From positions 201,766,208 to 201,830,207 of the forward strand of contig OV884058.1 in the NCBI GenBank assembly GCA_930367215.1: a stretch of DNA of 64,000 nucleotides, read 5' to 3'. The stretch is from Pollenia angustigena (Eukaryota; Arthropoda; Insecta; Diptera; Polleniidae). The notes beneath the pieces are model-generated. The model was not told where the DNA came from. It saw nothing but the letters and a program-made list of their open reading frames with translations, and did no database searches. Both the position numbers and the translations under genes were made by a program. This document shows, piece after piece, positions 18,210-58,353 of the stretch (position 1 is its first letter; every line of letters starts with the position of its first letter).

Positions 18210-20030
18210 TAAAAAGTATAGTAGGTCAAGCCCAACCATTTAATACCCTACACTACAGTATTTAAAAACAAATTTTTTAGAGTGTTCCCTATTTGGGACC
18301 CATGGGCAATCATGAACCCGCCAGAACAATTTTAAGCTATGGGGTTAAGATTCATGCAAAAGTTCTTTGTGTCTATGTATATTCATCCATATGAGATTTG
18401 CTTGCCTTATGTGACCTATGGCTAGTTTCGGACCTACCAGAACAACATTTTGTCATGACATTGTAGCTATCGTAAAAGTTATTGCCGCTTAAGTTTATGC
18501 CAATACCAACATTTAAAGAAAAGTTATGCCATAAAAAGCTTTTTTCGAGAAAAGTATTTGTATGTGATCAATGATCAAATATTGACCGATTCCAATAACA
18601 TTTGTTAAGATTGTTGGGATTGCAATCAAGGTTCAAATGGAGGCCCAGTCCGCTTGACGAGCTTCGTTAGATCGACTCAGAAAGTAATTGGTATACTTAT
18701 TTTATTTTTATTTGATTAAATCTATGGATATGAATCCTTACAGTCTACTATATATTACAAGATTTTATATAAATTAACGAAAAAAATTTATTAAGACATA
18801 TTAAGTGTTTAAAAACACAATAATATTGCGTTTAATTACATTTACAATAATAGAAAAATCGATTAAGCTATACAATTCATTGAAATTTTTGCATATTCTT
18901 CTCAAAGTATCAGCATCAGCATAATTTATTTGAACAACAGGAAGGTGTCGGGTAAAACGGCGTGGAATATTAAAATTTATGTTACGAAGAAGGAAGTCGG
19001 AGAGGACATCGCCAATAATCAAATTAATTAGAAATGCCACACTTAGTATAGTCCTTCGGCTTTTATAATAAGGTAGTTTAATTATTGATAACCTCGCAGT
19101 ATACGAAGGAAGATTCCCAGCACAACGATCAAATGAACTCCTCAGGCAGAAGAAGAGAAACTGCTTTTGAACAGATTCAATTCGGTCTATGTGCATATTA
19201 ATTTCAGGATCCCAGACAATAGACCCATACTCCAAAATTGGCCTTACAAGGGATGTGTATAGTTTTTTCGTTACATTAGGATCTATAAACTCTTTAGACC
19301 ATCGTTTTAAATAAGCAAGCACATCACGAGCTTTATTAATCGTCATTGTAATATGTTTGCAGAAATCTAGCTTAGAATCAAGTAGAATACCAAGATCAAG
19401 AAATTCTCCGACTAACTCTAGTTGATACCCGTCCAGAAAATAGTGCAGCATTCATGTGCAATTTCTAGAAAATCGCATATGCTTGCATTTTTTTAAGTTA
19501 AGCTCCATTTGGTTATATTTACACCATGCGTAAAAACTATTTAAATCCTGCTGCAAATACGCCCCATATGAAGATAATTTGTAGCTGAGAAACATCTTAA
19601 CATCATCAGCATACATTAAAATATTACAATGCTTCACTACAAGCGGCAAATCGTTTATGAAAATTTAAAATAGCAAAGGGCCTAGGTTACTTCCTTGGGG
19701 GACACCGGAGCTAACAGAAATTTCTTTGGAGGTGGTATTATTAAAAAGAACACACTGTGTCCTGCAGGTTAGGTACGACCGTAACCAGCACAAAGCGTTG
19801 CTAGTAAACCCTAATAAATTCAGTTAGTGAGAAGTAGGCTATGGTTGATTTTATCAAAAGCTTTGCTGAAGTCAGTATAAATAACGTCCATAAGTTGGCC
19901 ATCCTTAAAAGCTCGATTTGTTAGAGTTGTTAGTTGTAAAATATTTGTTGGTCTAGGACCAATATTTTAAGGTGTTATAAACATCAGAACGCATATAACC
20001 TTATCCACTCTTGTCTTTTGGTTATAATAT
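18210..20030. mobile_element. mini-me-like element split by a LINE insertion
   Basis: 18216-18700 (AAGTATAGTAGGTCAAGCCC... to ...GGTATACTT) and 19948-20030 (GGTCTAGGACCAATATTTTA...) align with consecutive parts of the element at 13678-14250, where GGTATACTTTAAGGTGGGTC is continuous. The intervening approximately 1.25 kb is the LINE fragment described separately. The long GTCY tract is missing in this copy. Confidence 0.6.
18801..19945 (-). pseudogene. Non-LTR retrotransposon reverse transcriptase fragment, broken
   Basis: Reading on the minus strand, the fragment encodes the palm of a LINE reverse transcriptase: VIYTDFSKAFDKI (first catalytic Asp), then [21 protein letters not shown] and YADDVKMF (catalytic Asp pair), then a thumb/C-terminal region including LDLGILLDSKL, RPILEYGSIVWDP and SVQKQFLFF. 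The motifs fit the Jockey/CR1-like group; the clade is an inference. The frame is cut by an in-frame TAA (about 19665), an in-frame TGA (19452-19454) and at least one frameshift upstream of SSGVPQG. The endonuclease part is absent (5' truncation). The insertion splits a mini-me-like element, so it is younger than that copy. Confidence 0.85.
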
Positions 20031-21663: not shown

Positions 21664-22920
21664 TATACCCTCCACCACAATTAGTTGTGAAGAGGGTATA
21701 TTCAGTTTGTCATTCCGTGTGAAACTTTTTTACTATTCATCTCAGACCCTATAAAGTATATATATTCTGGGTCCTTGAGTAATTTTAAGTCGATTTAGCC
21801 ATGTCCGTCTGTCTGTCCGTCTGTCCGTCTGTTGAAAACACGCTCACTTTCGAAAAACTCAAAAGAAATCAACAAACTTGGTGTCAAATTGCTTGTAGTT
21901 ATCCTAAGCAGTTTGGGATTGAAATTCAGCAAAATCGGTTCAATAGGATCTGAGCTATGAATCAAAATGTGGAACCACCACCTAAAAAAAATTGATAATT
22001 TTGTTACAAAAACTAAAATAAATGGTGGAAAAATGCACAGAATGATATAAGATTTAGCAACAATTCGTTTTATTCAACTGAAAATCACGCTGTGAAATTT
22101 CGTGAAGATCCGTCAATAATTTACCCTAGGCCCCATATAAGCCCTACTCCCGGAAAACAGTATATTAAGCCTAAAACCCCAACTAACAATGCTATCATTA
22201 CAATTTTTGGCAAGTCACAGTTACATAGGACTAGAAATTAAACTGTTAAGTTTCGTAAAGATCGGTCCATAATTTACCATAGGCCCCATATAAAACCTAC
22301 TTCCGGAAAACAACTTAGTACGCCTAAAAACGTAAAAAATAATGCTATCATAACAAAATTTGGTACATCAAAGTTTTATTGGACAAGAAATAATATTGTG
22401 TTATTTCGTGAAGATCGGTCCATAACTTACCCTGGGCCCCTTATAAACCTTACTCCCGGAAAACAGTTTAGTACGCCTAAATCCGTAAAAAATAATGCTA
22501 TCATAACAAAATTTGGTACATCAAAGTTTTATAGGGACAAGAAATAAAACTGTGTAATTTCGTGAAGATCGGTCCATAATTTATCGTGGGCCCCATATAA
22601 ACCCTACTTCCGGAAAACAGTTTAGTACGCCTAAATCCGTAAAAAATAATGCTATCATAACAAAATTTGGTACATCAAAGTTTTATAGAACTGGGAAGAA
22701 GACTGTGAAATTTCGTGAAGATCGGTCCATAATTTACCCTAGGCCCCATATGAACCCTACTACCGGAAAACAGTTTAGCCGCCTAAATCCATAATTAATA
22801 ATAAATCGTCATAGTTTAAGATAATAATAACATCATACAGATATTACTCCTTAAACATTCGAACTGTCGGTGGAGGGTATCAAAGATTCGGCACAGCCGA
22901 ATATAGCACTCTAACTTGTT
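21664..22920. mobile_element. DINE/mini-me-like element with internal tandem array
   Basis: It begins ACCCTCCACCACAATTAGTT and ends GGTGGAGGGTATCAAAGATT...CAGCCGAATATAGC. GTCY repeats lie at 21801-21831 (TGTCCGTCTGTCTGTCCGTC). From 22094 to about 22800 there are five copies of a roughly 154-bp unit, each containing TTTCGTGAAGATCGGTCCAT, GGCCCCATAT, CCGGAAAACAG and AAATTTGGTACATC. A related copy lies inverted at 46849-48327. It is noncoding. Confidence 0.7.
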
Positions 22921-25923: not shown

Positions 25924-27308
25924 GAGCGACTCAAGTTGTATGGAAGCAAAATTCGTACTCGATGTACCCTCCTAAAAATGAACCTTGGACATTTTTAAGA
26001 TGACATTTTAAATATTACGGCTCCAGGGTTGACCTCTCGTGAGGGTCTATTTTTGCATGTTTTGTTACTTTAAGAATCTGTGTCCTTACCAACATATACA
26101 AGTTGGGTATCGTAAGAAAGGTTTTTTTAAGGCGCGTCTAACTGTATATAAAATTTGTCCACGGACGATCATCCATGTCCTTTTTTTTAAGGATTTTCTG
26201 TAAAAAAAACGGTTTTTGAATTTTTTGTTCGGGGTTGTTTGTAATAATAGTGCCAAATTAACATATTTTAATCTTCAGTCGATTTAATTAAATACGTGTC
26301 TCAGCTTTTTTTGAAATTCGTGCTAGTTCGCGTTTTGACAAAAATGCAATGGGATGGTAGCCCTTTGTTTTAAATAGGGAAATATGGGTATCAAATTTTT
26401 TCTTTTGCCAAGTACATCAGCTTTGTATGTAAATAATATGGATTTTTGCAAATTATATGCATTTTACACGGTGCTCTGGAATATATAAAAATGCAATTTT
26501 TAGTAACTCTTATATGAATGCGGGTTAAGTTTCTAGATCATGTATAAATGAAAATAGGACTAAAGAAAGAAAAAAAGAAATGATCCACTACTTAAATTTT
26601 TTTTAATTTGCGAAAAAAAATATGCCGCCAAAAAGTCGTGGATCGTTTCTTTTTTTCATTCTTTAGTCCTATTTTCATCCATACATGATCTAGAAACTAA
26701 GTCCGCTATCATATTAGAGTTACTAAAAAATTGCATTTATATATATTCCAGAGCACCGTGTAAAATGCATCTTATTTGCACAAATCAAAATTATTTACAT
26801 ACAAAGATGAAATACTTGGCAAAAGATAAAATTTGATACCCATATTGCCCTATTTAAAACAAAGGGTTACCACCCCATTGCATTTTTTTCAAAACGCGAA
26901 CTAGCACGAATTTCAAAAAAAGCTGAGACACGTATTTAATTAAATCGGCTGAAGATTAAAATATGTTAATTTGGCACTATTATTACAAACAACCCCGAAC
27001 AAAAAATTCAAAAACCGTTTTTTTTACAGAAAATCCTTAAAAAAAAGGACATGGATGATCGTCCTTGGACACATTTTATATACAGTTAGACGCGTCTTAA
27101 AAAAACCTTTCTTACGATACCCAACTTGTATATGTTGGTAAGGACACAGATTCTTAAAGTAACAAAACATGCAAAAATACCCCTTTTTCAAATTGGTCCA
27201 GCTCACGAGAGGTCAACCCTGGAGCCGAAATGTTTAAAATGTAATCTTAAAAAAGTCCAAGGTTCATTTTTAGGAGGGTACATCGAGCACTTTTTTGGTG
27301 AGTCGCTC
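25924..27308. mobile_element. Giant foldback element, 1385 bp, flanked by TA
   Basis: The whole element is a palindrome. GAGCGACTCAAGTTG... at the left is mirrored at the right end, and arms of about 650 bp meet near 26600 (GTCCTATTTTCAT / ATGAAAATAGGAC). TA flanks both ends, as with Tc1/mariner-type insertions. Arms differ by scattered changes, so the copy is not brand new. There is no transposase frame. A single-arm copy lies at 56302-56884. Confidence 0.8.
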
Positions 27309-28960: not shown

Positions 28961-29406
28961 CTAGCTGACCCGACAGACGTTGTCCTGTCCAAATTAGGAA
29001 AAATGTTTGCGTTCGATTTTTAAAATCCGTTAAAAAGATACGAACATTTGAAAGAAAATCGAAAAAAGTGAGCGGGGCAAAATTATCTTTCCGTTAAAAC
29101 CTAAGTTGAACCATGGCGATAATTTTTAATAAAAAATCGTCCAAATTATATAGATGTCATTGTTGGTGCAATATGAAAATTGGATTTTGCCACGCCCCTC
29201 CGCCCGCAGACCGAAAATCAAAAATCAGATTTCACAGTGTTACCCGCCTAAATATTCTGAAGATTTCCTGAAAATTTCATCAAAATCGGCCCAGCCGTTT
29301 TGGAGTCCATACGTTAGGTACATACATACATACACACATACATACATACATACATACATACATACATACATACATACATACATACATACATACATACATA
29401 CATACA

Positions 29407-29440
<34 letters not shown>

Positions 29441-29470
29441 CATACATACATCCTGTTTTATATATAGAAA
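28961..29470 (+). mobile_element. Retroelement-like 3' end with (TACA)n tail
   Basis: It starts CTAGCTGACCCGACAGACGT, runs through AAAATTTCATCAAAATCGGC and CCAGCCGTTTTGGAGT, then a (TACA)n array at about 29317-29451. This design (degenerate end, simple-repeat tail) is like the 3' ends of RTE-type LINEs in arthropods; the class is inferred. The YIHT-repeat open frames over it are translated microsatellite. Confidence 0.45.
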
Positions 29471-39374: not shown

Positions 39375-39379
39375 CGTCG
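39375..39379. repeat. Target site duplication CGTCG (left)
   Basis: Direct copy of 43266-43270. On the right, CGTCG is followed by a second CGTCG (43271-43275), so the original target was a CG-rich patch. Confidence 0.9.
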
Positions 39380-40068
39380 CACATAGGGGTTTTTTGCCAA
39401 TCTAGCCGGACATTACTTTTTGTTTTAGCTTATATTGCTTCTTAAAAGTTATTGAGTGCCCCTAGATCGATGAAACTTGGCAGAAATATGTGATATTGTC
39501 ATAGGCAGGTAAACCTAAAAAATAAATAAAATCGGACCAAGGAGGAAAATGTTCCCCCTAGAAGAACTAATCCAACCTCTGAAAAATGCAATTTTTTTTA
39601 AACTTTTCCCATACTTTTGTTTGGCAAATGCAACTTTTAACGTCGGCGAAAGTTAAAAAACCTAAAATAAGACCCATGAGATCGTAAAATTACACTTTTC
39701 GCCCCCCGCCCCCTTTTGAGGGCGGTTACATAAAATAATATTTAAAAAAAATGTAAATATTAAAAGAAATAGATTACTAACGCCTTAATACTATAAAAAT
39801 TAAATTTTTGAACTTTAATGGGTAGGGGGAGATATCCCTCCAAACACCCCCCCCCCCCGGAACGACCCTGTAAAAATTTTTTTTTTTTTTGCTAATTTCC
39901 AAAACATATTAATTTTTAAGATTTTATGTGACTTTTATATATTTTATAGTATTTAATTTATCTGAAAATAATTAATATATTCGTAATAATAACTTATTTA
40001 TAATAGTAACAGCAAATTTTATTTAAAATAATAACAACTAATTTATTTAAAATAACTTCTCTTTTGCA

Positions 40069-42105
40069 CTAAGATGATGATGAGTGCCATGGTTCTTCTT
40101 CGTCTGCTTCTTCAAAATCCTCTTCTGAATCTGAATTCTCTTCAGAGCCAAGTACAGGTGGAAGCATAAAAGAAATTGCTTCTTTCGTAAAGGGTAGTGA
40201 CTTTTTTTTTGGAGTTGGTCTTATACTAGTAATCAGTGGGTCAGAACTGAGCAAAAGTCTATTTATAACATCTTTGTTACACTGAACCCTCGAAAACTTT
40301 CTAGCAAAATTCTGCCTGTAAAGCCGAAAATGTTTATTTCGTGCCTCAGACGCTTCTTCTGATAATAGCCCGATAGGCAACAATGCCTCACTCATTACAG
40401 TTGCGCCATGTACTAAAATCTTGTGCATTGTAGGTGTCATAGGATGCCAGGGATATAGAGTAACGTAAAGTTTTGCAGTGTCTAAGCAATAATTGGCAAA
40501 CTCGTGCAAATGGATTTTGTGACCACTTGTAATTACTTCAATAATAACTTTGATCCGGTAGATGAAATCCAATGCAATTCCAGTTATTTCTGCAGCTAAT
40601 TCAGGATTGGAAAAAAATCGTCTGCTGGTGTTACCATCGTTGCTGTTTCCAAATCCAGTCTTCGGTACATCCACTATTAGCCCTAATTCACTTCTAAATT
40701 TTTCTTGGATAGTTTTTTTCCTCTCATTAACAATAGTTTTGTCCTCATCCGATCTTAATTGCCACTTTTTTACTGTGAGTTTATACGATAGGTGTAATAT
40801 GCTCTCAAATAGACGAATTCTGGCGTGCAAAGTAGATAATCCGAAAGAAAGTGCATCTACGTCTATATCCCTTTTGATTTTCAAATTGTTAAATTCTTTT
40901 GAAGTAGCCCCACAAATATAGCACTTCATTGTGGACGTAGTTTGTGTTGCGGCATTACATACTTTTGCATCTATCATTGTAAATACCATTGTATGTTTTA
41001 TGGAATATAACTTTCCTTCCATTAAAAAATTAGTGTTTTGTAATGTAGTAATGGCATCTTGTACATAATTAATTTCTTCTTGGATTACATCTACAGTTTC
41101 TTTAACAAATCTGATGCGAATAGGTCTACAATATCGCGGTGATGAAGGAGTTGGATTTTGCCATAATATTTTCTCCTTTTTTGCACCATATATTAGTCGA
41201 AGCGGTACGAAACTACTCTGAAAAATATGAGAATCAGAAGCATCATTTTTCATCTTTTGCTTAAATTGTGCCTGGTGTGATCCATCGCAGCCCCATTTGC
41301 TTATTAGTTCGAGGGAGTTGCATTCTTCTATTTGTGAATCACATAAAACATCTTTTAAATATGTAAGTAATCTACTTGCAGTATGATTAAGCAAATCCTG
41401 AAGATTTATTTGAGCACATGTTTCCGTTACTTCAAATGATTCTTTTGGAGGATAGCATTCACTTTTCTCTCTCTGCAGAATTTTGTAGCTAGGATAAACC
41501 TTCTTAGCGGCACTTCGGATTATTTCATATTGTTTTCGAGAAAGATCAGCTTCTACAAATATAGAAAGAGCCTTTAGAGGGGTTAGCTGTTTTACTTTAT
41601 CCTCTTGTGCAGCTTTGTATGCTTTTTTTATTTTTGTAGCTCTTGCCGGAGAAGACACAATTTCTTTAAGCAGACCTGAGGCATCTTTTTTTCCAGACGT
41701 TTGTAGTTGTGTTTGGGTAGCGTGCATCAATAAATCAGCATCGGTTTGAGTTCGCAAGATTTCAGTTTTTCTTCTCTTACTTCTTTCGGTCAATTCAACA
41801 AACGGCTTTTGTAGTCGTTTTGAAGACGAACTCCCAAAAAAAGGTATTGTCACTGTTCCTTCCAGCCATTTGGCATGCATGCTTACAAATCGATCCTTTT
41901 TTCTTTGTGCTGAATGCCAAAATATTTTAAAAAAATATTTGAATTTCTTTAAGCATTGATTTACTACTGATATGTCACTATCTCTTTGACATTTTGAAAT
42001 TTCGCACAATTTTCTAACTAAAAATTGTAATTTCTCTTCAACGAGTTTAGAACTACATTCTTGTATAATTTGGAATAACTCTAAATTCGTATACACTTTT
42101 TCCAT
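40069..42105 (-). CDS. Transib/RAG1-like transposase, intact, 678 residues
   Basis: A DDE transposase related to the RAG1 core, expected to cut at the element's CAC ends. An in-frame stop precedes ATG 42103-42105. Matches to RAG1: CDG (D274, cf. D600), MIDAK (D379, cf. D708), CYIC (C395/C398, cf. C727/C730), LHARIRLFE, NDGNTSRRFF (cf. NGNFARKL), HKILVH (H561/H566, cf. H937/H942), and SEEASEARNKHFRLYR with E587 best placed for E962. Spacings are close: D-D 105 (RAG1 108), second H to E 21 (RAG1 20). Residues about 1-260 are basic and helical-looking, without the RAG1 RING. The tail is acidic (EENSDSEEDFEEADEEEP). No stops or frameshifts. It could be active; domestication is unlikely because terminal repeats and target duplication are intact. 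No RAG2-like gene lies in the element. Confidence 0.93.
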   Translation of the reverse strand: MEKVYTNLELFQIIQECSSKLVEEKLQFLVRKLCEISKCQRDSDISVVNQCLKKFKYFFKIFWHSAQRKKDRFVSMHAKWLEGTVTIPFFGSSSSKRLQKPFVELTERSKRRKTEILRTQTDADLLMHATQTQLQTSGKKDASGLLKEIVSSPARATKIKKAYKAAQEDKVKQLTPLKALSIFVEADLSRKQYEIIRSAAKKVYPSYKILQREKSECYPPKESFEVTETCAQINLQDLLNHTASRLLTYLKDVLCDSQIEECNSLELISKWGCDGSHQAQFKQKMKNDASDSHIFQSSFVPLRLIYGAKKEKILWQNPTPSSPRYCRPIRIRFVKETVDVIQEEINYVQDAITTLQNTNFLMEGKLYSIKHTMVFTMIDAKVCNAATQTTSTMKCYICGATSKEFNNLKIKRDIDVDALSFGLSTLHARIRLFESILHLSYKLTVKKWQLRSDEDKTIVNERKKTIQEKFRSELGLIVDVPKTGFGNSNDGNTSRRFFSNPELAAEITGIALDFIYRIKVIIEVITSGHKIHLHEFANYCLDTAKLYVTLYPWHPMTPTMHKILVHGATVMSEALLPIGLLSEEASEARNKHFRLYRQNFARKFSRVQCNKDVINRLLLSSDPLITSIRPTPKKKSLPFTKEAISFMLPPVLGSEENSDSEEDFEEADEEEPWHSSSS

Positions 42106-42267
42106 TTTACTCTCGAAGCTTCAAAATGGTTCTGATAACAATTTTATGCAAAAACCACAATATATATTTAAAAAAACTAAGTACCTAGACCCCAGATTTG
42201 ATTTTTTATTATATATTATTTTTGTTGTTAATGATTTTAAAAGTTATGCAAAACAGGTACATTTATT

Positions 42268-42707
42268 TTGCTCTATTAAATAACGTCCTTTAGCGGCCGC
42301 ACAGGTGGTTAAAACCCGTTACTTACTGTTTCGCACATCCCTTTTTTTACACAGGTAATATTAGGCTTATATGTAATAATTTAAATAAAAACCATCTACG
42401 TACAACCAAAACATTTTATGACTGACGAAAGGGTTTCTATCATATGTACCTATGCAAGATGAGCAAAAACAGAAAAAAGGTAAAAAAATTTGTTTGCTCT
42501 ATTAAATAACGTCCTTTAGCGGCCGCACATGTGGTTAAAACCCGTTACTTACTGTTTCGCACATCCCTTTTTTTACACAGGTAATATTAGGCTTATATGT
42601 AATAATTTAAATAAAAACCATCTACGTACAACCAAAACATTTTATGACTGACGAAAGGGTTTCTATCATATGTACCTATGCAAGATGAGCAAAAACAGAA
42701 AAAAGGT
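42268..42707. repeat. 226-bp direct tandem duplication inside Transib
   Basis: Two copies start at about 42268 and 42494 and share GCTCTATTAAATAACGTCCT, TTAGCGGCCGCAC and ACTGACGAAAGGGTTTC. They are nearly identical (e.g. ACAGGTGG versus ACATGTGG). Lying upstream of the transposase start, they may belong to its promoter or 5' leader. Confidence 0.9.
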
Positions 42708-43275
42708 GAAATTTTCAAAAAATCATAAAAAAAAATGGCGCAACAACGCGCAACGTTTTTTTTTTGAATTTAAAAGTAGAGATTTCAAATTTTATCGTGA
42801 TGTACAAAATTTTTAAGAACTCAGCGGAACTCACCTTCAAAAACCTTTTAAATTTTTTTTTTTTACAAAAAAGTGAACAAAAAAATCGTTTTTTTTAATT
42901 TCGTACTAATTTTTTTATCATAAAAAATTCAAATAAAATTTTTCTAAAAATTTTCATAATTAGCTGTTTATATAGTCTTTCACAGAAAAAAAAAATTCAA
43001 TGTAAAATCTTTATTCGTTTATCTACAAAAAAATATATTGTAAACCTCCCAAAACCGTAAAAAGTCAATGAACACGCATGCAATTTAATCAACTTTCCTG
43101 GTTTTAACAGTGTCCCAAAACCACAAATCTCAAGCAAAAGACTTGAAAATTCACTATACGATGCAGAACTTTGTTGTCTGTCGAGCTGCGTACTTAAATT
43201 TTTCCATTTCTTAAAAAAAATTTTTTGCTTAATGTCCGGCTAGATTGGCAAAAAACCCCTATGTGCGTCGCGTCG

Positions 43276-46848: not shown

Positions 46849-48327
46849 AGTTAGTATATTCGGCTGTGCCGAATCTTTAATATCTCCTCCACCGAGAGTT
46901 GGAATATTTCAGGAGTGGGCTTTATATGGTGTCAATAAATTGTAATGTGACGTTTTCACAATACAAGTGATTGAACGTGTAGTAAAATTTTTATGAAAAG
47001 CACTCAGTTTTTTGAGCCAATCTTTATAAAAGCCGACCTCGCAATTTTATAATTCGTCGCCTTAATTAAATAAAACATCTTGATTTGTTTCAGAAATATT
47101 GTTTCCTGAAAGTAATTATCAGTACGGGATTTTATATGAGAGCTACCGTAAATTATAGATCGTTCAGTACAAAATTCGGTAGAGTGATTTCTAGTACTAC
47201 AAAAACCAAATTTTAATACAGTAATGTATTTGTTTAAGAATTTTATGTTTCTTAAATTAATTTTCAGAAAGCCGCTTTATATGGGACCTGCGGTTAAATG
47301 AATTTCCAAAGTAGGCTTAATATGTGACCTTAGTCGTGAACCGATCTTCACGAAAAACGATGAATGTAAGAAAAGATATACTCACTGTTTAGTGTTGGTG
47401 TTTTGTCTAAGCTTTGATATCGTTTGCAAGTAAGACTAGAATGTTTGTAATTCTTATTCGTTTTACAGTTTTATTTGTATAATATCTTAAGTTTATTCAA
47501 AGTCTTTCGAAGCAGGTTTTCTGATGATCTGGCCTAAACAAGCTGTGAAATGCGCATAAAAACTAGCTTTCCCTCAACAATAAATTTCAGTGTTTTTATC
47601 AAAAATAAAAATTGGGAATTAAGCACGTTAATGAGAAATCTTTTTAAATATGAAATACTAAATTTTGCTCCAATACCTTAATCGTTACGCTATTAGGCGT
47701 ACTAAAGTGTTTTTTCGAAAGTGGGCTTTATGCAGATCATATGGTAAACTATGGACCAATCTTTTCCAAATTAGGTTGAGTTGTTTCTCATCGTATTGAA
47801 GAATGACTGAACAAATTAAACTGCAATACCAGTATTCGTTACGGTTAAAGACGTACTAAAGGTTTTCCGATAGTGGGTTTTATATGAGCCCTATGGTAAA
47901 TTATGGACCGATCTTTATAAATTTATTAGTATGATTTCCATTCATATAAAACGAATTTGTGCAAAATTAAATGAGAATCGGTGCATTCTTTCAATAATTT
48001 GTGCTGGTTTTTTTTTAAACAAAAATATCAATTTTTTAGTTTTGTGTTCATAATTTTTTTCCTGCAAAACCGATTGTGCTGGATTTCAATCAAACTGCTT
48101 AGGAGATCTCGAAAGAGTTTGACATCAATTTTGTTCTTCTCTTTTAATTCGTTCGAAAGTGAGCGTAATTTCAACATACGAACGTGGCTAAATCGACTGA
48201 GAATTACCCAAGGACCCAGAATAAATATACTTAATGGAGCCTTAGATAAATATTCAAAAATGTTTCTCACGGAGTAACAAACTTAGTATACGCTTATTCA
48301 CCACTAGTGGTGGTGAAGAGTATAAAA
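46849..48327. mobile_element. DINE-like element, inverted copy (about 1.48 kb)
   Basis: It opens with TATATTCGGCTGTGCCGAAT and CTCCACCGAGAGTTGGAAT and closes with CCACTAGTGGTGGTGAAGAG, the reverse of the element at 21664-22920. Degraded 154-bp-type units (GACCGATCTT, GGGTTTTATATGAG) can be traced. Family Z sequence interrupts it near 47520-47640. The 98- and 80-residue frames at its end are not genes. Confidence 0.6.
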
Positions 48328-49033: not shown

Positions 49034-52000
49034 TTACACCATATTCCATATGCTATAAGAACGTCTTTGTAGTCTTTCTGCTTTTTCCTCCTCCTCCGCT
49101 AATTGTTCATAATCAATTTCCAAATACTCTTTACCACCAAAACTCACTTTACGTCCGGTAAACTTTTTCAAATAGTTTATGTGTGAGGACACATCTTTGC
49201 CATCGATGTCCAAGAGATAAGATATACTAGTTATACGTTCCTTAATACGCCCACGTCTCCACTTGATTTGAGTCTTTTTAAAGCGTTCTGCATACAGGAC
49301 TTCATCACCAATGTTATACTCTTTGTGCAAGATGCAAGACTTTAAAGGTTTCTTTTCTTCTTGTTGCTCTTGAGCCTTTTTCGCCTCCTCATCTGTCTCC
49401 GCGTCGACCACGTCATCTTCATCTTCACTGACATAAGCGATGGGTTTTTCTAAAGTTTCAATTTCAGCATTTTGTTGTTCTTCTGTGGTGCCAGGCTGGA
49501 AAAAGCTGTCACTTATGGAAAGTCTACGTTTTTGTCTTTTAATTATAACTTTCTTTTTTACTCTGCGTTCTTTTTTGGGAGTTTGTGTAGCTGTCACTTC
49601 CTCAGAGCCCAAGGAAGTAGAAGATTCTGATATTTCCGTAGATTCCGAACATTCTTCAGTTAATTCCTCTGGAACGAGTACCGAGGGCTCATCAACTGTA
49701 ATTGTTTGTTCAGTTTCTGATGGGGGTTTTTCAATTTCTAGTTCAGGCTTTTTGTTTTTTTCTGCCAAATTATGCCGTACAATTTTTTTTATAATAACTT
49801 TCTTTTTATGATGTTCTGTAGATGGAATTATTTCGGCCGTTTGAACGGGTGCGGGAGCCAATTGTAATTCAGGCATTGTGCTCTGTTGCTGATTTGCTGA
49901 TGGTTCAGCTTTTTCTACGACTAGTGACTCAGTAGGTAATAGTGACGATATTGATGTTTCAGTTGTTGTTTTTTGTATGAGGTCTGATGTGCTACTAATG
50001 GAAATATGTGGGGAGCTAATGGTTTTTGTACCAGCAGCGTTCGTTATTGATTGTTCGTCTTTTTCAAGCAACTGATGACGAGTTTGTTGTTGTTGGTGCT
50101 GCTCTGCCCCGACGTGGGTTGAGGTTGCTGTTTTATCTTGACAAGGCTCTTTTAAAGATATTTTATTTTTGACGTCTTCGTTTCTGTTGTTTTCGTTGCC
50201 GATTTTACCGTGTGCGACATCCGTTGTTACAATCACTTGTTGATCTTGTGTTGCTGATTTTTGTTGTGGTTCTTTCGGTTTTAATAAAGTGGTTTGTGGA
50301 ATTTTTAAATTTTCGTTAAAATTTTCATTAGATTCCTGCTTTAAAAGAATATCATTTTTAACCGCCAACAAATTATTTTCAACTTGTTTCACCTCTTTTA
50401 GTTCATTTTGTTTGATTGCTGTTGTGGAAGGTTTGATTATAGTTGTTTCTAGTTGCAAAAGATCATGTAAATCTTCTGCAGGCACCGCTTTTTCGCGTTT
50501 TATTTGACTGTTTGCTTCGCTGTCTGTGGATGAACTTAACACAGTTGTTAGATTTTCTAACATAGCGCTTTTAGGTTGTAAATCGTTTGATTTGAAATTT
50601 GTAGTTGTAGATTTAATTGTCGCTTGCTGTTCTTGCTCCCCTTGTTCTTGTTGTTTTTGTTGCTGTCTTGGCGTTAACACTGAATTTTTAATTGTTTTTA
50701 CATTTAATGACGCCGCCTCATCGATCACTAATTGCGTTGGCAGCAATATATTTGTTTGGCTAGTGATTGCATTGTTAATTTGTTGTTGTTGTTTCTGCTG
50801 TTGTCGTTCTGGTTGTTTTGGCATTACAACATCCTTGTTTGTCGCATTGTGTATCGATTTATTCTGTTCATCTAACGATTTAACAAAATCATCACTTTTA
50901 TAGTTTTCGGCTGTCATTGTAGTCTTTTCTTCTTTTAGTTTCGTTTGCGTTGTTGCCAATTCCGAGTTTGTGTTGTTGCTTTCGTTTTTGAAAGAGGATC
51001 TTTTAACTTTTACAATTTTCGGTTTTGGCGTCACTTCCTCAACTATACCGGAAGTATTCAGTTTGGCGGTAATTAGTTTCTTTTTTACCAAAGCCTCTGA
51101 ATCCGAAGGTCGTCTGTGTATCTTAGCAGGTATGGCCACTTTTACAGGAGGTTCAATTTTTGAACCCTCCACAGCCGCCAGAGATGCTCTTCGTGATAAA
51201 TCTTTGGATTTAATAATTATCTTCTTCTTCGTTTTCTTATCATCATTTTCGGATGTTGTTGTTTTATTTTTAACGGCTGGTTTGGGAATTGCTCCTTTGG
51301 ATTGCTCCTTAAGAGCTGGAAGTTCTTTTTGGAGAGTACAATTTTTATCATTTGGTTCTTCCTTAAGTTTTTGTTGCTCATTTTTAAAAGTTTGAGATTT
51401 ATCTTTTGAAATTTTATTAACTTCATTTTGTTCTAATGTCTTAGTTTCTAGAGCATGCTCCAATGATTCTTGAACTTCTTCCTTTAATGTATATAAATTG
51501 TCTTGATTTTTAATTTCACTAGATTCCAAAGAGACGTTTAAAGAACTTTGATTCTTAATTTTATCATTAGCTTGTTCTTCTATTGTTTTTTCTTGAGGAA
51601 CCTGGACAATTTCAGAACGTTGAGTGGGCAGTGCTGTTCTATTTTCTAACTTACAATTAACCCTTTCATCTTTTATTTCTGTTTGGTTTTCGATCGTTTC
51701 TTTTGATATTGCATCGGTTTTTTCTAGTTCCTTGTCCTTTTTTCCATCTTCATCTTCTTCTGCGAATAGACTTCGCCTGCGTACTTTTTTAACAAATCTG
51801 AATGTTACTGGGCCTTCTTTTTTCTCATTTTCATTATCTTCTTTTATACTACTTAGCGTTGCAGCAGTTTGACTTTGATTCTCATTCTCATTTTCATCTT
51901 CAGTGCTGTATTGCTTTAAAACTCCTTTAACTTCACTAAGAGAAGCCGATATGCGGGCTTTTAAAAGATTCAGACGTTCTATGGGGTCTTCGGGTTCATC

Positions 52001-54784
52001 TTGAGTACGTAAGCGCCTTTGGCGACGAAAACGTGTTCTTTCTGGCAAAATATTTTCCAATGAAGAATCAATTGATACGGCTCGATTAAGTGAAGAAGTT
52101 CGATCAGGTTGATTCAATGTTGACAGGGGAGTATAGTGAGGTAAATCTACCGAAAGCAGGGAAGTTGATTGAGTATTTCTTAAAGCACCTAAAGAAGGAC
52201 GTCGGCTGGATAAAGCTTCAGTTTTTGGATCATTTGAGGTTTTTAGGAAACTCGGGGCAGCGCGGCTTGTAACGGATTCTTTTAAAGCAGGAGCTGTTGA
52301 AACGGACCGATTTGTTATTCCTTCTTGTGGTAGATGAGTAGTTAATGTAGAACGCTTCGATATCGTAGTGGGCAAGGTACTGCTTTCTTTTTTTAATGAC
52401 AATGACGGTCTTGGTGTATGCGAGCTGTCATTGTAATTTCTTGTTGTTGTAAATGAATACGGCAATTGGCTGCTACTTAAATTTGGATCTGTAGATAATC
52501 TTGTTGGATTAGTCACACTATGACGATTATAATTGCCTTGGTCGTTGCTTGCTATTAAATTTTCGTGTTTAACGGGTGAACGTTTCGATACCGAACTCGG
52601 AAATGCACCTTTTACTCTATTCATTTCGAACTTCATTTCATCGATTTGTATATCGTTACATAAAATATTGTTTTTGTTTTCGAGGGCTTCATTAAATTCT
52701 AAATGATCATTTTCATTAGTATTTTCTGGTTCGTTTTCCGAAAAATGTGTAACTGTCATTTCACACACGCTTTTATTTGTCAAGTTTTTTTCACGCGAAT
52801 TTGTTTGCAAATTTTCCGTTTCGCTTGTTTCAAGTTCAATTATCTTGCTTAATTTATTTGGCGTATCAATTGTCTTAATTGGATCGTATTCCAAATTATC
52901 TTTTACATCGACACTGATTTCTTTATTCACTGCGAACACATTATATTTTGGCAATAATTCACTGGCATTTGTATTATCTTCAAGTGACGTAGTATAAGCA
53001 GATTCATTTAACGGATTGGGGTTAGGGGAAATTGGGGAAGCAGGTTCTTCACTTTTCACTAAAAAACTACCCGTACTCTTGATTTGTTCTTTTGTGACAC
53101 CGTAATCGACCGCTTTAAATAACGTTTCGCGTACATCTGAGCATTCCACAATTTGGCCAACCTCACGATCACAGAGATCATCACCATAATCATATTTGTT
53201 GTATAGAACCTCTTTATTATTATCGGTTCTCTCGGTATTTCGAACACTTGTTACACTCATTGGGGGTGTTAATGCGAAACGAGTACTTCTAGTATTGCTA
53301 ATGCCATTGTCATGATCATGATTAGCTGCGTTTGTGCTCTCATGTTCACTATTATGATTAGTTTTTAAAGAATTTTTAATTCTTTCAAAGAGAGCAACAA
53401 TTGCGTCTTGTACGAGCTCTATTTTTTCCGCATAATATCCCACTTCGTTTGGTTGAGTATTATTTATAGAATTTATGGCTTTTAATATACATATTTCTTT
53501 ATCGTCGTCGCCGCCGCCACGATCGTCACATATTGTATTAGTCATTGTTGTTGTTGCTTGTGGAGGCGGCTGTATGTTTTCGCTCGTTGCTAATGGTCGA
53601 GTTATTTTCTCTACATGAACTTGTGCGTCTTGAACTTGAGGCACATGTTCATTATCAATAATTTGAGACACATGTTCATTATCAATACTTTTCTTTTTTT
53701 CGCTATTCTGCGTCATTAATAATGATGGCAAAATAAAAGATGTTTGTGAATTATTAGAATTGTTTACGTTATTCCAATTGCTAAGATTTTGTCTATATTG
53801 TTGTTGTAAAGGGAATTTTAAAAGAATGCGTTGTGTTTCCAATTGGTTTTTCAAATGTGACTCACAAGGAAATATTGTTATTAAAGTTTGATTATTTTGA
53901 ACAGATTTTAAAATTTCTTTAGTTGAAAATTGTTGTCGAAAATTATGAAAATTTCCAACTGTTTGACTTTTAAAATTATTTTCAAGAGGAAACTGTCCAA
54001 AATTTTGTGTTAATTTTGTAGGAAACTTTAAATTATCTTCTATTTGAATATTAAGGGAATTGGAATTATGTTTAAAAGAATTTTTTTTAGTTCGTTTGCG
54101 ATTTATACTGCTTGCCTCGTTATCTCTTGGTATTTCTTTAAAACTCCGCTTAACTCTTGATAATGGTTTGGACTTTAAGTCTAATTGATGTATTTGATTT
54201 TTTTTTACTTTTGCAAAATTTTTAATTTTCTCTTTTAATTGTTTGCTTTTAAAAGGAAATGTTTCATTTCCTGCAACTAGTTTTAAGGGAAACTTTGACT
54301 TTTTTGATCTTATTTCCTTTTGTTTAAAACGAGCGGGAGTATAAGCATTAAAATTACCCTCCATAATGTTTAAACAGGGAAAATCTTCTTTTTGCCTGGG
54401 TCTTTCTACAAACGGAAATTGTTGACTATTTTGCTGGTAAGAGTGATGCTTTCTTTTTAATTTATTAAAAATTTCAATATTATTAACAATTCTTTGAGAT
54501 TTTAAATATTTAAGTAAACTATGCCATGACATTTTCTGAGAATGTTTCTTGGCATTTTGATTTTCTTCTGCCACAGGAAATGATAGTTTTCCATTTGTGT
54601 TGGGTTTCGTTTGGCAGGTAAACATTTGCTGAGTTGACGTAGTTTGTAAAATATTACATGAATCATCAATCGATAATTGCGTTAATAAATTAACGCTATT
54701 AGAACTGCTAAAATTTTGTTGAGCAATTGACTCAAGACGTTGCAAAGAAAGGGGCTTGGTTTGAGGTTGGGATGTCATAGACAT
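49034..54784 (-). CDS. Large unrecognised low-complexity protein, single long exon, about 1916 residues
   Basis: I do not recognise this gene. From the first ATG (54782-54784) an unbroken 5.75-kb frame runs to TAA 49034-49036. The frame stays open 13 codons plus a few more upstream, to a TAG at about 54845, without another ATG; that TAG also fits a splice acceptor (CTCAATAG), so the exon may be internal. Visible parts: an N-terminal region with nine FP dipeptides (residues about 69-325); long Ser/Thr/Glu/Lys-rich, probably disordered sequence; a helical block IERLNLLKARISASLSEVKG (about residue 950); three KKK(I/V)IIK motifs; poly-Q tracts; an acidic stretch (SEDEDDVVDAETDEE); and a C-terminal block of about 100 residues starting IGDEVLYAERFKKTQIKWRR that looks folded (Tudor/chromo-like strand pattern; inference). 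Codon use and complete openness show it is real and constrained. No membrane segment or signal peptide is seen. A donor GTAAGT overlaps the stop. Confidence 0.85.
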   Translation of the reverse strand: MSMTSQPQTKPLSLQRLESIAQQNFSSSNSVNLLTQLSIDDSCNILQTTSTQQMFTCQTKPNTNGKLSFPVAEENQNAKKHSQKMSWHSLLKYLKSQRIVNNIEIFNKLKRKHHSYQQNSQQFPFVERPRQKEDFPCLNIMEGNFNAYTPARFKQKEIRSKKSKFPLKLVAGNETFPFKSKQLKEKIKNFAKVKKNQIHQLDLKSKPLSRVKRSFKEIPRDNEASSINRKRTKKNSFKHNSNSLNIQIEDNLKFPTKLTQNFGQFPLENNFKSQTVGNFHNFRQQFSTKEILKSVQNNQTLITIFPCESHLKNQLETQRILLKFPLQQQYRQNLSNWNNVNNSNNSQTSFILPSLLMTQNSEKKKSIDNEHVSQIIDNEHVPQVQDAQVHVEKITRPLATSENIQPPPQATTTMTNTICDDRGGGDDDKEICILKAINSINNTQPNEVGYYAEKIELVQDAIVALFERIKNSLKTNHNSEHESTNAANHDHDNGISNTRSTRFALTPPMSVTSVRNTERTDNNKEVLYNKYDYGDDLCDREVGQIVECSDVRETLFKAVDYGVTKEQIKSTGSFLVKSEEPASPISPNPNPLNESAYTTSLEDNTNASELLPKYNVFAVNKEISVDVKDNLEYDPIKTIDTPNKLSKIIELETSETENLQTNSREKNLTNKSVCEMTVTHFSENEPENTNENDHLEFNEALENKNNILCNDIQIDEMKFEMNRVKGAFPSSVSKRSPVKHENLIASNDQGNYNRHSVTNPTRLSTDPNLSSSQLPYSFTTTRNYNDSSHTPRPSLSLKKESSTLPTTISKRSTLTTHLPQEGITNRSVSTAPALKESVTSRAAPSFLKTSNDPKTEALSSRRPSLGALRNTQSTSLLSVDLPHYTPLSTLNQPDRTSSLNRAVSIDSSLENILPERTRFRRQRRLRTQDEPEDPIERLNLLKARISASLSEVKGVLKQYSTEDENENENQSQTAATLSSIKEDNENEKKEGPVTFRFVKKVRRRSLFAEEDEDGKKDKELEKTDAISKETIENQTEIKDERVNCKLENRTALPTQRSEIVQVPQEKTIEEQANDKIKNQSSLNVSLESSEIKNQDNLYTLKEEVQESLEHALETKTLEQNEVNKISKDKSQTFKNEQQKLKEEPNDKNCTLQKELPALKEQSKGAIPKPAVKNKTTTSENDDKKTKKKIIIKSKDLSRRASLAAVEGSKIEPPVKVAIPAKIHRRPSDSEALVKKKLITAKLNTSGIVEEVTPKPKIVKVKRSSFKNESNNTNSELATTQTKLKEEKTTMTAENYKSDDFVKSLDEQNKSIHNATNKDVVMPKQPERQQQKQQQQINNAITSQTNILLPTQLVIDEAASLNVKTIKNSVLTPRQQQKQQEQGEQEQQATIKSTTTNFKSNDLQPKSAMLENLTTVLSSSTDSEANSQIKREKAVPAEDLHDLLQLETTIIKPSTTAIKQNELKEVKQVENNLLAVKNDILLKQESNENFNENLKIPQTTLLKPKEPQQKSATQDQQVIVTTDVAHGKIGNENNRNEDVKNKISLKEPCQDKTATSTHVGAEQHQQQQTRHQLLEKDEQSITNAAGTKTISSPHISISSTSDLIQKTTTETSISSLLPTESLVVEKAEPSANQQQSTMPELQLAPAPVQTAEIIPSTEHHKKKVIIKKIVRHNLAEKNKKPELEIEKPPSETEQTITVDEPSVLVPEELTEECSESTEISESSTSLGSEEVTATQTPKKERRVKKKVIIKRQKRRLSISDSFFQPGTTEEQQNAEIETLEKPIAYVSEDEDDVVDAETDEEAKKAQEQQEEKKPLKSCILHKEYNIGDEVLYAERFKKTQIKWRRGRIKERITSISYLLDIDGKDVSSHINYLKKFTGRKVSFGGKEYLEIDYEQLAEEEEKAERLQRRSYSIWNMV
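49036..49040 (-). promoter_or_regulatory. Splice donor overlapping the apparent stop codon
   Basis: The minus strand reads ATG GTG TAA GTT, which contains a full donor consensus GT|GTAAGT. Splicing after GT (exon end 49038) would skip the stop and keep a valine codon whatever follows. Confidence 0.4.
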
Positions 54785-55800
54785 GTCCAAATTTTTCTTA
54801 ATAAATACACTACTCTCTTCCAAAAAAAATCTCTTGTTCTATTGAGTTTTTTAAGTTCTCACTCTCTCGTTTGTCCTTATTTTCTTCTCAGTTTTTTTTT
54901 TCTCTAATTAACTTGAGTTCTAATTTTAATTTATTTACTCTTTTATTTTTTTTTTAAATATGTATATACGTATGTATATATTTTGTCGTTAAAATACACA
55001 AAATTTTATTAAAATTCCTTTAGTTTATTTAATATAAAATAAAAATAATTTTGAACTTGTTTTCACAATTAGATGCGAGAAATATTTTCGTATTCACTTT
55101 TCCGTCAACAACAAAAGCTGTAACAGCTCGCGCGAATTTGTATGATCATGGTGTTCAACGTTAAAAAAATGCCACTAAATTTTAAATATTTATTTATAAA
55201 CATTTGTTTTTTTCTACATTTTCTTAAATTTTTTTAGTTTTAATTCAATTAATTTTTATTCTAAATTCAAATGCATTACCAATAAATTTTAGTTACAAAC
55301 ATTTGCATAGCTTGAGTATATATTTATGTATGTATGTATATCTATGTACATATTTATTTTTTTATTTATACATAAATATGTTCATACATATGTAAGTACA
55401 TATGCATAGATCGGTATATACTATATATTAAGTTTTCGTGTGTTTTAAGTTTTCCTCCCCGCCATTTTAATTGTTGTTTTTTTGTTTGTTTTGCAAATGC
55501 AAAAGATGATTTTCTGCCAAAATATTTTTCGTTTTTTTTTTAACAATTGGGCAAATCACAGATTGAATTAATAAATATTTATAAAAAATAAATAAATAAA
55601 TAAATATTTATAAAATGAAAAAATGTTTAATATAATATAAAGTAACCTTCACAAGGAAATAATTCCCAGTTTCTAATTATTTATAAAAAGTTTACCATAA
55701 AATTATTCCTTACATACCGTCCAGACTATTGATTGTTACTTGTGCTCAAGAACAAAACAAATGCAGAATTACCGTAGCGCAATTGTTTGTTCTTTGCTAC
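54785..55800. other. 5' flank or intron of the large gene
   Basis: Contains pyrimidine-rich tracts, ATGTATGTAT-type simple repeats (about 55325-55400), and TAAATAAATAAATA near 55584. No TATA box or start site can be chosen with confidence. Confidence 0.35.
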
Positions 55801-56180: not shown

Positions 56181-56301
56181 CCTAGAATTAAAGAGTGACT
56201 GAATATAAAATTTACTTAAAACGATAATAAAACAAAGATCATGTGAAAAAAATTAGCCAAAAAGTGGCAAACTATTAAAAAAAATCTGTAAGTATGTATA
56301 T

Positions 56302-56884
56302 TAGAACGACTCAAGTTGTATGGAAGCAAAATTCGTGCTCGATGTACCCTCCTAAAAATGAACCTTGGACTTTTTTAAGATGACATTTTAAATATTTCGG
56401 CCCCAGCTTTGACCTCTCGTTAGCTGGACTAGTTTGAAAAAGGGTCTATTTTTGCATGTTTTGTTAATTTGAGAATATGTTTCCTTACCAACATATACCA
56501 ATTGGGTATCATAAGAAAGGTTTTGTTAAGGCGTGTCCAACTGTATACACAATTTGTCCATGTCCTTTTTTAAAGGATTTTCTGTAAAAAAACGGTTTTT
56601 GAATTTTTTGTTGAGGGTTGTTTGTAATAAAAATGCCAAATTAACATATTTTAATACGTGTCTCAGCTTTTTTTGAAATTCGTGCTAGTTCGCGTTTTGA
56701 CAAAAATGCAATGGGATGGTAACCCTTCGTTTAAAATAGGGCAATATGAGTATCAAATTTTTTCTTTGGCCAAGTACATCAGCTTTGTATGTAAAAAATA
56801 TGGATTTTTGCAAATTATATGCATTTTACACGGTGCTCTGGAATATATAAAAATGCAATTTTTAGTAACTCTAATATGAATGCG
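56302..56884. mobile_element. Single-arm copy of the giant foldback element
   Basis: TAGAACGACTCAAGTTGTAT through GTAACTCTAATATGAATGCG matches one arm of 25924-27308 with about 60 bp of small deletions. The second arm is absent and the sequence runs straight into the 56921-57897 inverted repeat. Confidence 0.75.
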
Positions 56885-56920
56885 GTTTTAGCTTCTTTGA
56901 AGTTTGAAGTTTCTTTGAAA

Positions 56921-57897
56921 TTTCAGCTTCCTATGTCATCAGATGGCTTCAGAAAGTTGCGGAAAGAATAGGACATACATGCAAACATCCTGACATACTA
57001 AGAAATTATATATTGTATAGATAGATTAAAGTATTTGCTGTTTAATATTTAAGTATGATACGAGCGAAAGATTTTTAACCAAATTCGGGGTCGCTGAATC
57101 CAGCGCCATATAAATCAATTTTTTATGAATTTTTAAAAACAAAAATTCCGAAATTTTAATATAAAAATTATTTTTTTTTCCAGAAAAAAAAATTATGTTT
57201 CTAAAACGACTGCGCATATAAGAAAAACGTTTTACCTTTCTTAAAGTAAATTTTATTGCGGAATTTCGGTTTTTTTTAGTTTTTCAATAAGCTAAAGCGT
57301 TTTTGAGTTACGCGAACATATCTTATGCAACCTCCTTAATTTTCGAAATAACGGTATATCTCGAAAACCAAAGCCAACATAAAGAAAAAAGTTTTAACTT
57401 TCATAAAGTAAATTTTTTTGCGGAATTTCGGTTTTTTTTTAGTTTTTCAATAAACTAAAGCGTTTTTGAGTTACGCGAACATATGTTGTGCAACCTCCTT
57501 AATTTTCGAAATAACGGTATATCTCGAAAACCAAAGCCAACATAAAGAAAAAAGTTTTAACTTTCTTAAAGTAAATTTTATTGCGAAATTTCGGTTTTTT
57601 TTAGTTTTTTAATAAACTAAAGCGTTTTTGAGTTACGCGAACATATGTTGTGCAACCTCCTTAATTTTCAAAATAACGGTATATCTCGAAAACCAAAGCA
57701 AACATAAAGAAAAAAGTTTTAACTTTCTTAAAGTAAATTTTATTGCGGAATTAGGGTTTTTTTAGTTTTTCAATAAGCTACATATGTTAATCTATCTATA
57801 CAATATATAATTTCTTAGTATGTCAGGATGTTTGCATGTATGTCCTATTCTTTCCGCAACTTTCTGAAGCCATCTGATGACATAGAAAGCTGAAATT
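56921..57897. mobile_element. Inverted repeat enclosing a tandem array
   Basis: Arms 56921-57028 and 57787-57897 (TCATCAGATGGCTTCAGAAA, GGACATACATGCAAACATCC, TATTGTATAGATAGATTAA and mirrors) are about 110 bp and nearly identical. Between them lies a tandem repeat (57230-57785). Confidence 0.75.
57230..57785. repeat. Tandem repeat, about 162-bp unit, 3.4 copies
   Basis: AAAGTAAATTTTATTGCGGA-type words recur at 57243, 57405, 57568 and 57730. Each unit includes AAGCGTTTTTGAGTTACGCG, GCAACCTCCTTAATTTTC and GGTATATCTCGAAAACCAAA. It is satellite-like and noncoding. Confidence 0.85.
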
Positions 57898-58353
57898 TGG
57901 CACACTTGAAGTATTTTCTCTGCGGAAGATCGTAACGAAGCCATATTTTTGATTTTTGGCTTTTCAACTAGTATAACTATAAAGATCTGATAGAAAAGAT
58001 TTTTTTTTATAATATTGGGAACTTTGGGCCCCACCCGGTACGGCTAGGCACCGTCGGATTGACCTGAAAAATTAGATCATGATTTCTTACACCAAACCTC
58101 ATATTTTAAGCAGCGCAATCAATTAAATTTAAAAAAAAAAAAATTGCGACCAGTCTAATATACATACATATTTACAATACTTAAAACTTCATTATAAATG
58201 AAATTTAAAAAGCGAAAACTGGTAAATATTTTTTTTAAATCGTTTTTAGTTTCTATTTGTTAAAATTATTTCGTTAAATATATGAAATAATAAAAGAGGG
58301 TGATAACGAAAATCATATTGGGCATTATGCTAGTATATGTAAACAAATACGAA

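Follow-up and report, generated by a model that had tools for sequence, protein, structure and literature searches.

The 64,000-nucleotide stretch of contig OV884058.1 of the fly Pollenia angustigena analysed here (the window, at its full length) very probably carries, at positions 39380–43265, a complete copy of a cut-and-paste transposon of the Transib superfamily, the gene of which is found at at least 85 places in the genome and the transposase of which is predicted to act by a nick-and-hairpin reaction. Judged from the DNA sequence, a probability of about 95% is assigned to this reading. Transib is a recognised relative of RAG1, the V(D)J recombinase which rearranges the antibody genes of vertebrates, and nick-and-hairpin chemistry is known for RAG1 and for HzTransib, the Transib transposase of Helicoverpa zea. 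The reading is carried by features observed directly: both ends and the target-site duplication, a gene which is intact and in which catalytic and histidine residues align, the many and little diverged copies, the preference for a target sequence and the paralogous sites without an insertion. An earlier note, made from the letters alone, had proposed a Transib/RAG1-like identity, which is now supported by the match to HzTransib (E 5.2e-116), the RAG1-type triad, the CAC ends and 5-bp duplications of the CGNCG type. The features of the element are as follows.

39375–39379, unstranded: left target-site duplication CGTCG (from the sequence; CGTCG or CGCCG stands once in four of the five unoccupied paralogues read)
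39380–39415, plus strand: left terminal inverted repeat, 36 bp, starting with CAC (from the sequence and genome-wide end matches)
40069–42105, minus strand: transposase gene, 678 amino acids, uninterrupted (from the frame, HzTransib and relatives)
40345–40347, minus strand: predicted catalytic E587, equivalent to RAG1 E962 and HzTransib E436 (alignments)
40408–40425, minus strand: H561/H566, predicted zinc ligands, equivalent to RAG1 H937/H942 (alignments)
40912–40923, minus strand: C395/C398, predicted zinc ligands (relatives; C398 on RAG1 C727)
40969–40971, minus strand: predicted catalytic D379, equivalent to RAG1 D708 and HzTransib D225 (alignments)
41284–41286, minus strand: predicted catalytic D274, equivalent to RAG1 D600 and HzTransib D126 (alignments)
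41596–41823, minus strand: residues 95–170, putative counterpart of the RAG1 nonamer-binding domain
41812–41820, minus strand: K96-R97-L98, in the place of the GRP motif of the relatives (relatives and 38 copies)
41836–42105, minus strand: N-terminal helical domain, residues 1–90, with conserved W63, F73, W80 and L81 (alignment of relatives)
42267–42711, unstranded: 226-bp tandem duplication in the 5' leader of the transposase gene (self-comparison and copies read)
43230–43265, minus strand: right terminal inverted repeat, identical to the left one at 36 of 36 bases (from the sequence)
43266–43270, unstranded: right target-site duplication CGTCG, with a second CGTCG directly after it (from the sequence)

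The element is 3,886 bp long and consists of identical inverted ends around one long gene. Both terminal inverted repeats start with CACATAG and, just as the earlier note had described them, are perfect over 36 bases. A 23-base piece of the end, searched with up to three mismatches, occurs in the window at two places only, the ends of the element, as compared to none in 100 shuffled sequences. The CGTCG duplication was likewise found on both sides as claimed, with an extra CGTCG on the right, where the flank reads CGTCGCGTCG, so that three CGTCG stand at the insertion site altogether. The leader between the transposase gene and the right end contains a 226-bp tandem duplication, the units of which are equal at 217 of the 219 overlapping bases. 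The remaining window was searched with the element by blastn (E<=1e-3) and, by tblastn (E<=0.01), with 24 transposases out of the 240 listed, and neither search gave a match. A candidate nonamer resembling that of a recombination signal sequence was looked for in the left end and rejected: the best one agrees at seven of nine letters in reverse orientation, and 428 of 2,000 shuffles equal it.

The transposase gene is one continuous frame of 678 codons without a stop, as had been reported, and the only other frame of at least 80 amino acids starting from ATG within the element is an antisense frame of 119 amino acids. No gene resembling RAG2 was found among these ATG frames; genes split by introns were not looked for. 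A search for related proteins yielded 587 transposases at E<=0.001, 120 of which were listed. Among the listed rows covering the respective site, D274 is kept in 120/120, D379 in 119/119 and E587 in 119/120, and the four predicted zinc ligands C395, C398, H561 and H566 in 120/120 each. The triad lies at the positions which the earlier note had given, aligned to the triads of RAG1 and HzTransib and nearly invariant in relatives, and the zinc ligand positions held as well. HMMER alignment places C398 on RAG1 C727, a shift of three residues. A structural check had also been proposed, and the three acidic residues of the RAG1-type triad fall together in an RNase H fold according to the alignments with HzTransib and RAG1 and the predicted fold, with the geometry taken through the alignments.

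The N-terminal part of about 170 amino acids is conserved and comprises a helical domain (residues 1–90) and a segment resembling the nonamer-binding domain of RAG1 (residues 95–170). In the latter, a GRP motif is present in 111 of the 113 relatives covering the site. When the model of residues 1–90 was compared to the PDB with Foldseek, no match was obtained at E<=0.001, and four RAG1 chains appeared at E 7–9. This missing match does not make the fold new. No description of the 90-residue domain was found among the leading literature matches, which covered few subscription papers.

The genome was searched in a 1.37-Gb assembly of 31 contigs, and all copy counts given here are lower bounds. 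The search with the DNA of the element, in which 38 of 1,988 first-look candidates were scored, returned 38 copies: 36 of almost full length, a truncated one and one split into two pieces, with identities of 99–100% throughout. The copies read are the window copy and L009–L045, those scoring best against the window copy. The 678-codon frame is kept in 37 of them and ends three codons early in L012; the leader repeat has two units in 37 and one in L040. The protein search gave 65 matches (65 of 12,670 candidates scored), every one of 678 amino acids without stops. Combined, the two lists have 18 places in common and amount to at least 85 places with a near-identical transposase gene, with at least 84 intact 678-amino-acid frames in the genome.

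The 38 copies differ on average by 0.227% substitutions in pairwise comparison, with a maximum of 0.438%, and their variable sites comprise 112 singleton substitutions versus 29 shared ones. The tree of copies is a star in which 30 of 35 inner branches are unresolved. Over about 3.88 kb, a copy deviates from the majority letter at 4.4 positions on average; L015 and L017 do not differ by a single substitution and the window copy differs from L009 by one, which argues for recent insertions. With the mutation rate of Drosophila, about 2.8e-9 per site per generation, the 4.4 substitutions in 3.88 kb put the age of the copies read at no more than about 4x10^5 generations on average, a value which sequencing errors would make too high and the choice of the best-scoring copies too low. 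The family is thus probably young and has probably moved recently, as divergence indicates, and the description of the copy as apparently young agrees with the number of intact frames, the low mean divergence and the star-like tree. It may still be mobile today.

Exact 5-bp duplications flank 34 of the 38 copies read and have many different sequences; in the other four, the duplication is one base off (L025), the right end is eroded (L009), or part of the right (L040) or left end (L044) is missing. When the 34 exact duplications were counted in both directions, C was found in 58/68, G in 59/68, any base in the middle, C in 59/68 and G in 58/68, corresponding to 85–87% per outer position, and 17 of the 34 are exactly CGNCG. 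This is the target reported for Transib elements, together with a 5-bp duplication (PMC4735498). The window element is inserted in a dispersed host repeat, and its flanks, when joined, agree at 90–92% with 40 uninterrupted paralogues (40 of 770 candidates scored). A check for empty sites had been suggested previously, and the insertion site is indeed unoccupied in these paralogues: in four of the five read, CGTCG or CGCCG stands there once. In the fifth, L052 (C3:201723548-201723761), 82 kb away, CGTCGCGTCG is found without the element, exactly as in the joined flanks of the window copy.

The earlier note had also proposed to count copies by the end of the element. Allowing for up to two mismatches, the first 28 bases gave 785 + 788 = 1,573 matches in the genome, and a reversed-pattern control gave none. 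Among 100 end places listed, exact ends form 35 facing pairs less than 10 kb apart, with lengths of 1.8–2.3 kb (n=16), 3.5–3.95 kb (n=13) or other values (n=6). Six of these pairs (L046–L051) were read, all six with an exact 5-bp duplication. L046 and L047 (C1:20176195-20178349 and C1:38782095-38784222) are non-autonomous derivatives of 1.9 kb with one internal deletion joint in common; L049 is a fresh deletion at 99.4–99.5% identity; and L051 is almost complete, with a single 226-bp unit and a frame of 675 amino acids.

From these observations a course of events may be proposed. A transposase dimer would bind the two ends of 36 bp and nick the DNA beside their CAC; hairpins would then form on the flanking DNA and the element would be freed with blunt ends and joined across 5 bp at CGNCG-like sites, giving rise to the 5-bp duplication. 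One or a few source copies would have given the recent expansion, and deletion derivatives in which both ends are retained are probably mobilised in trans by this transposase.

Several observations weigh against this reading or limit it. The element is known here from its DNA. The profile check which the earlier note had asked for succeeded for the alignments with HzTransib and RAG1 and failed in Pfam, where the 678-amino-acid query had no Transib or RAG1 match and only a sub-threshold one to KIF21A; when nine relatives were scanned, RAG1 (PF12940) appeared in three, once above the cut-off. For 47 of the 85 places the transposase gene is known without its ends, and the divergence estimate is biased low, as the copies read are those with the highest scores in the comparison with the window copy. 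With its three CGTCG, the insertion site exceeds by one the number expected if the element had simply entered the more common form of the paralogue sequence; the doubled CGTCG in L052 is possibly a doubled target variant common to two neighbouring repeats, or possibly the footprint of an earlier insertion and excision. L046 and L047 are about 3.5–9% diverged from the window copy, which together with the shared joint marks them as an older non-autonomous subfamily. The family as a whole suggests an older layer, in which a deleted form was amplified earlier, and a young burst of autonomous copies. The changes in the reading frame among copies, 49 nonsynonymous and 11 synonymous distinct ones, look neutral; since this is as expected without selection, the intact frames are a sign of youth and no proof of selection for activity. 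Finally, KRL or RRL occupies the GRP position in every one of the 38 copies read. If the family multiplied after replacing this motif, a natural test would be at hand, and the Transib with a solved structure lacks the whole module; we tentatively consider that GRP might be dispensable for transposition, although a related Transib which retains GRP, if present in this genome, may have helped in trans.

The neutral changes, the missing GRP and the mean of 4.4 substitutions per copy would all agree with a family which was active lately and is now silent, for instance by control through PIWI-interacting RNA (piRNA) or by a fixed KRL which weakens end binding, and the window copy would then be a young fossil. 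This is a serious but rather doubtful possibility in view of copies which are zero or one substitution apart, the window copy and L009 included, of the at least 84 intact frames, and of HzTransib, which is active in vitro (PMC6941560) and the solved form of which has no GRP segment. It concerns present activity and is compatible with the Transib identity of the element. That the copies arose by segmental duplication or are artefacts of the assembly, as their near identity could suggest, is highly improbable and is refuted for the copies read by their 300-bp flanks, which have no similarity at E<=1e-10 except for two short stretches between L021 and L033; the places are also distributed over contigs C1–C6, and 34 copies are each flanked by a separate 5-bp duplication. 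A RAG-like (RAGL) transposon or a domesticated RAG1-like host gene could share the clear similarity to the RAG1 fold and active site, but RAGL elements of the ProtoRAG type carry a RAG2-like gene, of which there is none among the ATG frames of the fly element, and this alternative to a Transib transposon is extremely unlikely.

Other features of the window include a 2-oxoglutarate dehydrogenase exon (1469–2383), a 153-bp tandem array of 4.7 units (22090–22802) with a diverged relative (71%) at 47685–48180, and a (TACA)n microsatellite of 33 units (29319–29451). A palindromic (fold-back) repeat of 1.3 kb at 25955–27290 is about 90% self-complementary, and half of it recurs at 56293–56896 (85%). 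At 56918–57898 lies an element of 981 bp; its inverted ends, 112 bp long (99%), surround a 162-bp tandem array of 3.5 units, and no clear flanking duplication was seen. A 216-amino-acid frame on the minus strand (18801–19451) has no Pfam match at E<=0.01; we take it to resemble the tail of a reverse transcriptase from a retrotransposon without long terminal repeats.

With dozens of intact and nearly identical full-length copies, the family lends itself to obtaining a complete and probably working enzyme, and it makes the role of the N-terminal part and the importance of the RAG1-like GRP motif testable. In the fly it has probably caused recent insertions and, along with its deletion derivatives, enlarged the genome. 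The known classes of transposons are unchanged by it, and the surprise is limited because a recent Transib invasion of D. melanogaster is already documented (PMC12230796). Less ordinary are the N-terminal part, missing from the solved HzTransib, and the replacement of GRP in all copies read. This family was not found described for calyptrate flies among the leading literature matches, with the same coverage as above.

Close relatives of the fly transposase are P0002 (95% over 78%) and P0001 (77%), with which it groups in a tree of 46 transposases. Those of the butterfly Euphydryas editha (P0022, 78% over 67%) and the beetle Brassicogethes aeneus (P0026, 77% over 68%), compared as proteins only, stand just outside, and insect orders are intermingled across the tree. 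The neighbouring frame of 1,934 residues (49034–54838) reaches 53–54% in Lucilia, 61% over 81% in Calliphora and 51% in Cochliomyia, its best relatives, which taken alone would make an oestroid or another calyptrate fly the likely host, probably of a genus other than these three. Since a host gene thus agrees at 51–61% between fly genera as compared to 77–78% for the butterfly and beetle transposases over two thirds of the protein, the protein comparison fits horizontal transfer between insects, which has been proposed for Transibs generally (PMC9435367). A viral carrier was searched for in IMG/VR with single protein and alignment queries, and no relative was confirmed.

HzTransib (PDB 6pqn, 6pqr, 6pqx and 6pqy), the only Transib turning up among solved structures, is about 37–42% identical to the fly transposase. 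It is described as having 489 amino acids as compared to 678, and its solved form aligns from about residue 171 onwards, without the N-terminal 170 or so amino acids of the fly protein and of most listed relatives. HzTransib is listed among the Transibs of PMC9435367, in which a Subgroup II is marked by loss of the alpha11-alpha12 region and by a CTT2 tail. Mouse RAG1 (PDB 9jpu and 6xnx) is about 15% identical and differs from the fly transposase in that the latter is encoded by a mobile element which has ends of its own and is without a RAG2 partner gene among its ATG frames of at least 80 amino acids. Transib1 of D. melanogaster is likewise a Transib DNA transposon with a recent spread in a fly, which it reached between 2013 and 2016 by horizontal transfer from D. 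simulans (PMC12230796). By description, Transib1 is an element of 3,030 bp in another host, whereas the family presented here occupies at least 85 places, along with its deletion derivatives, in a genome of 1.37 Gb.
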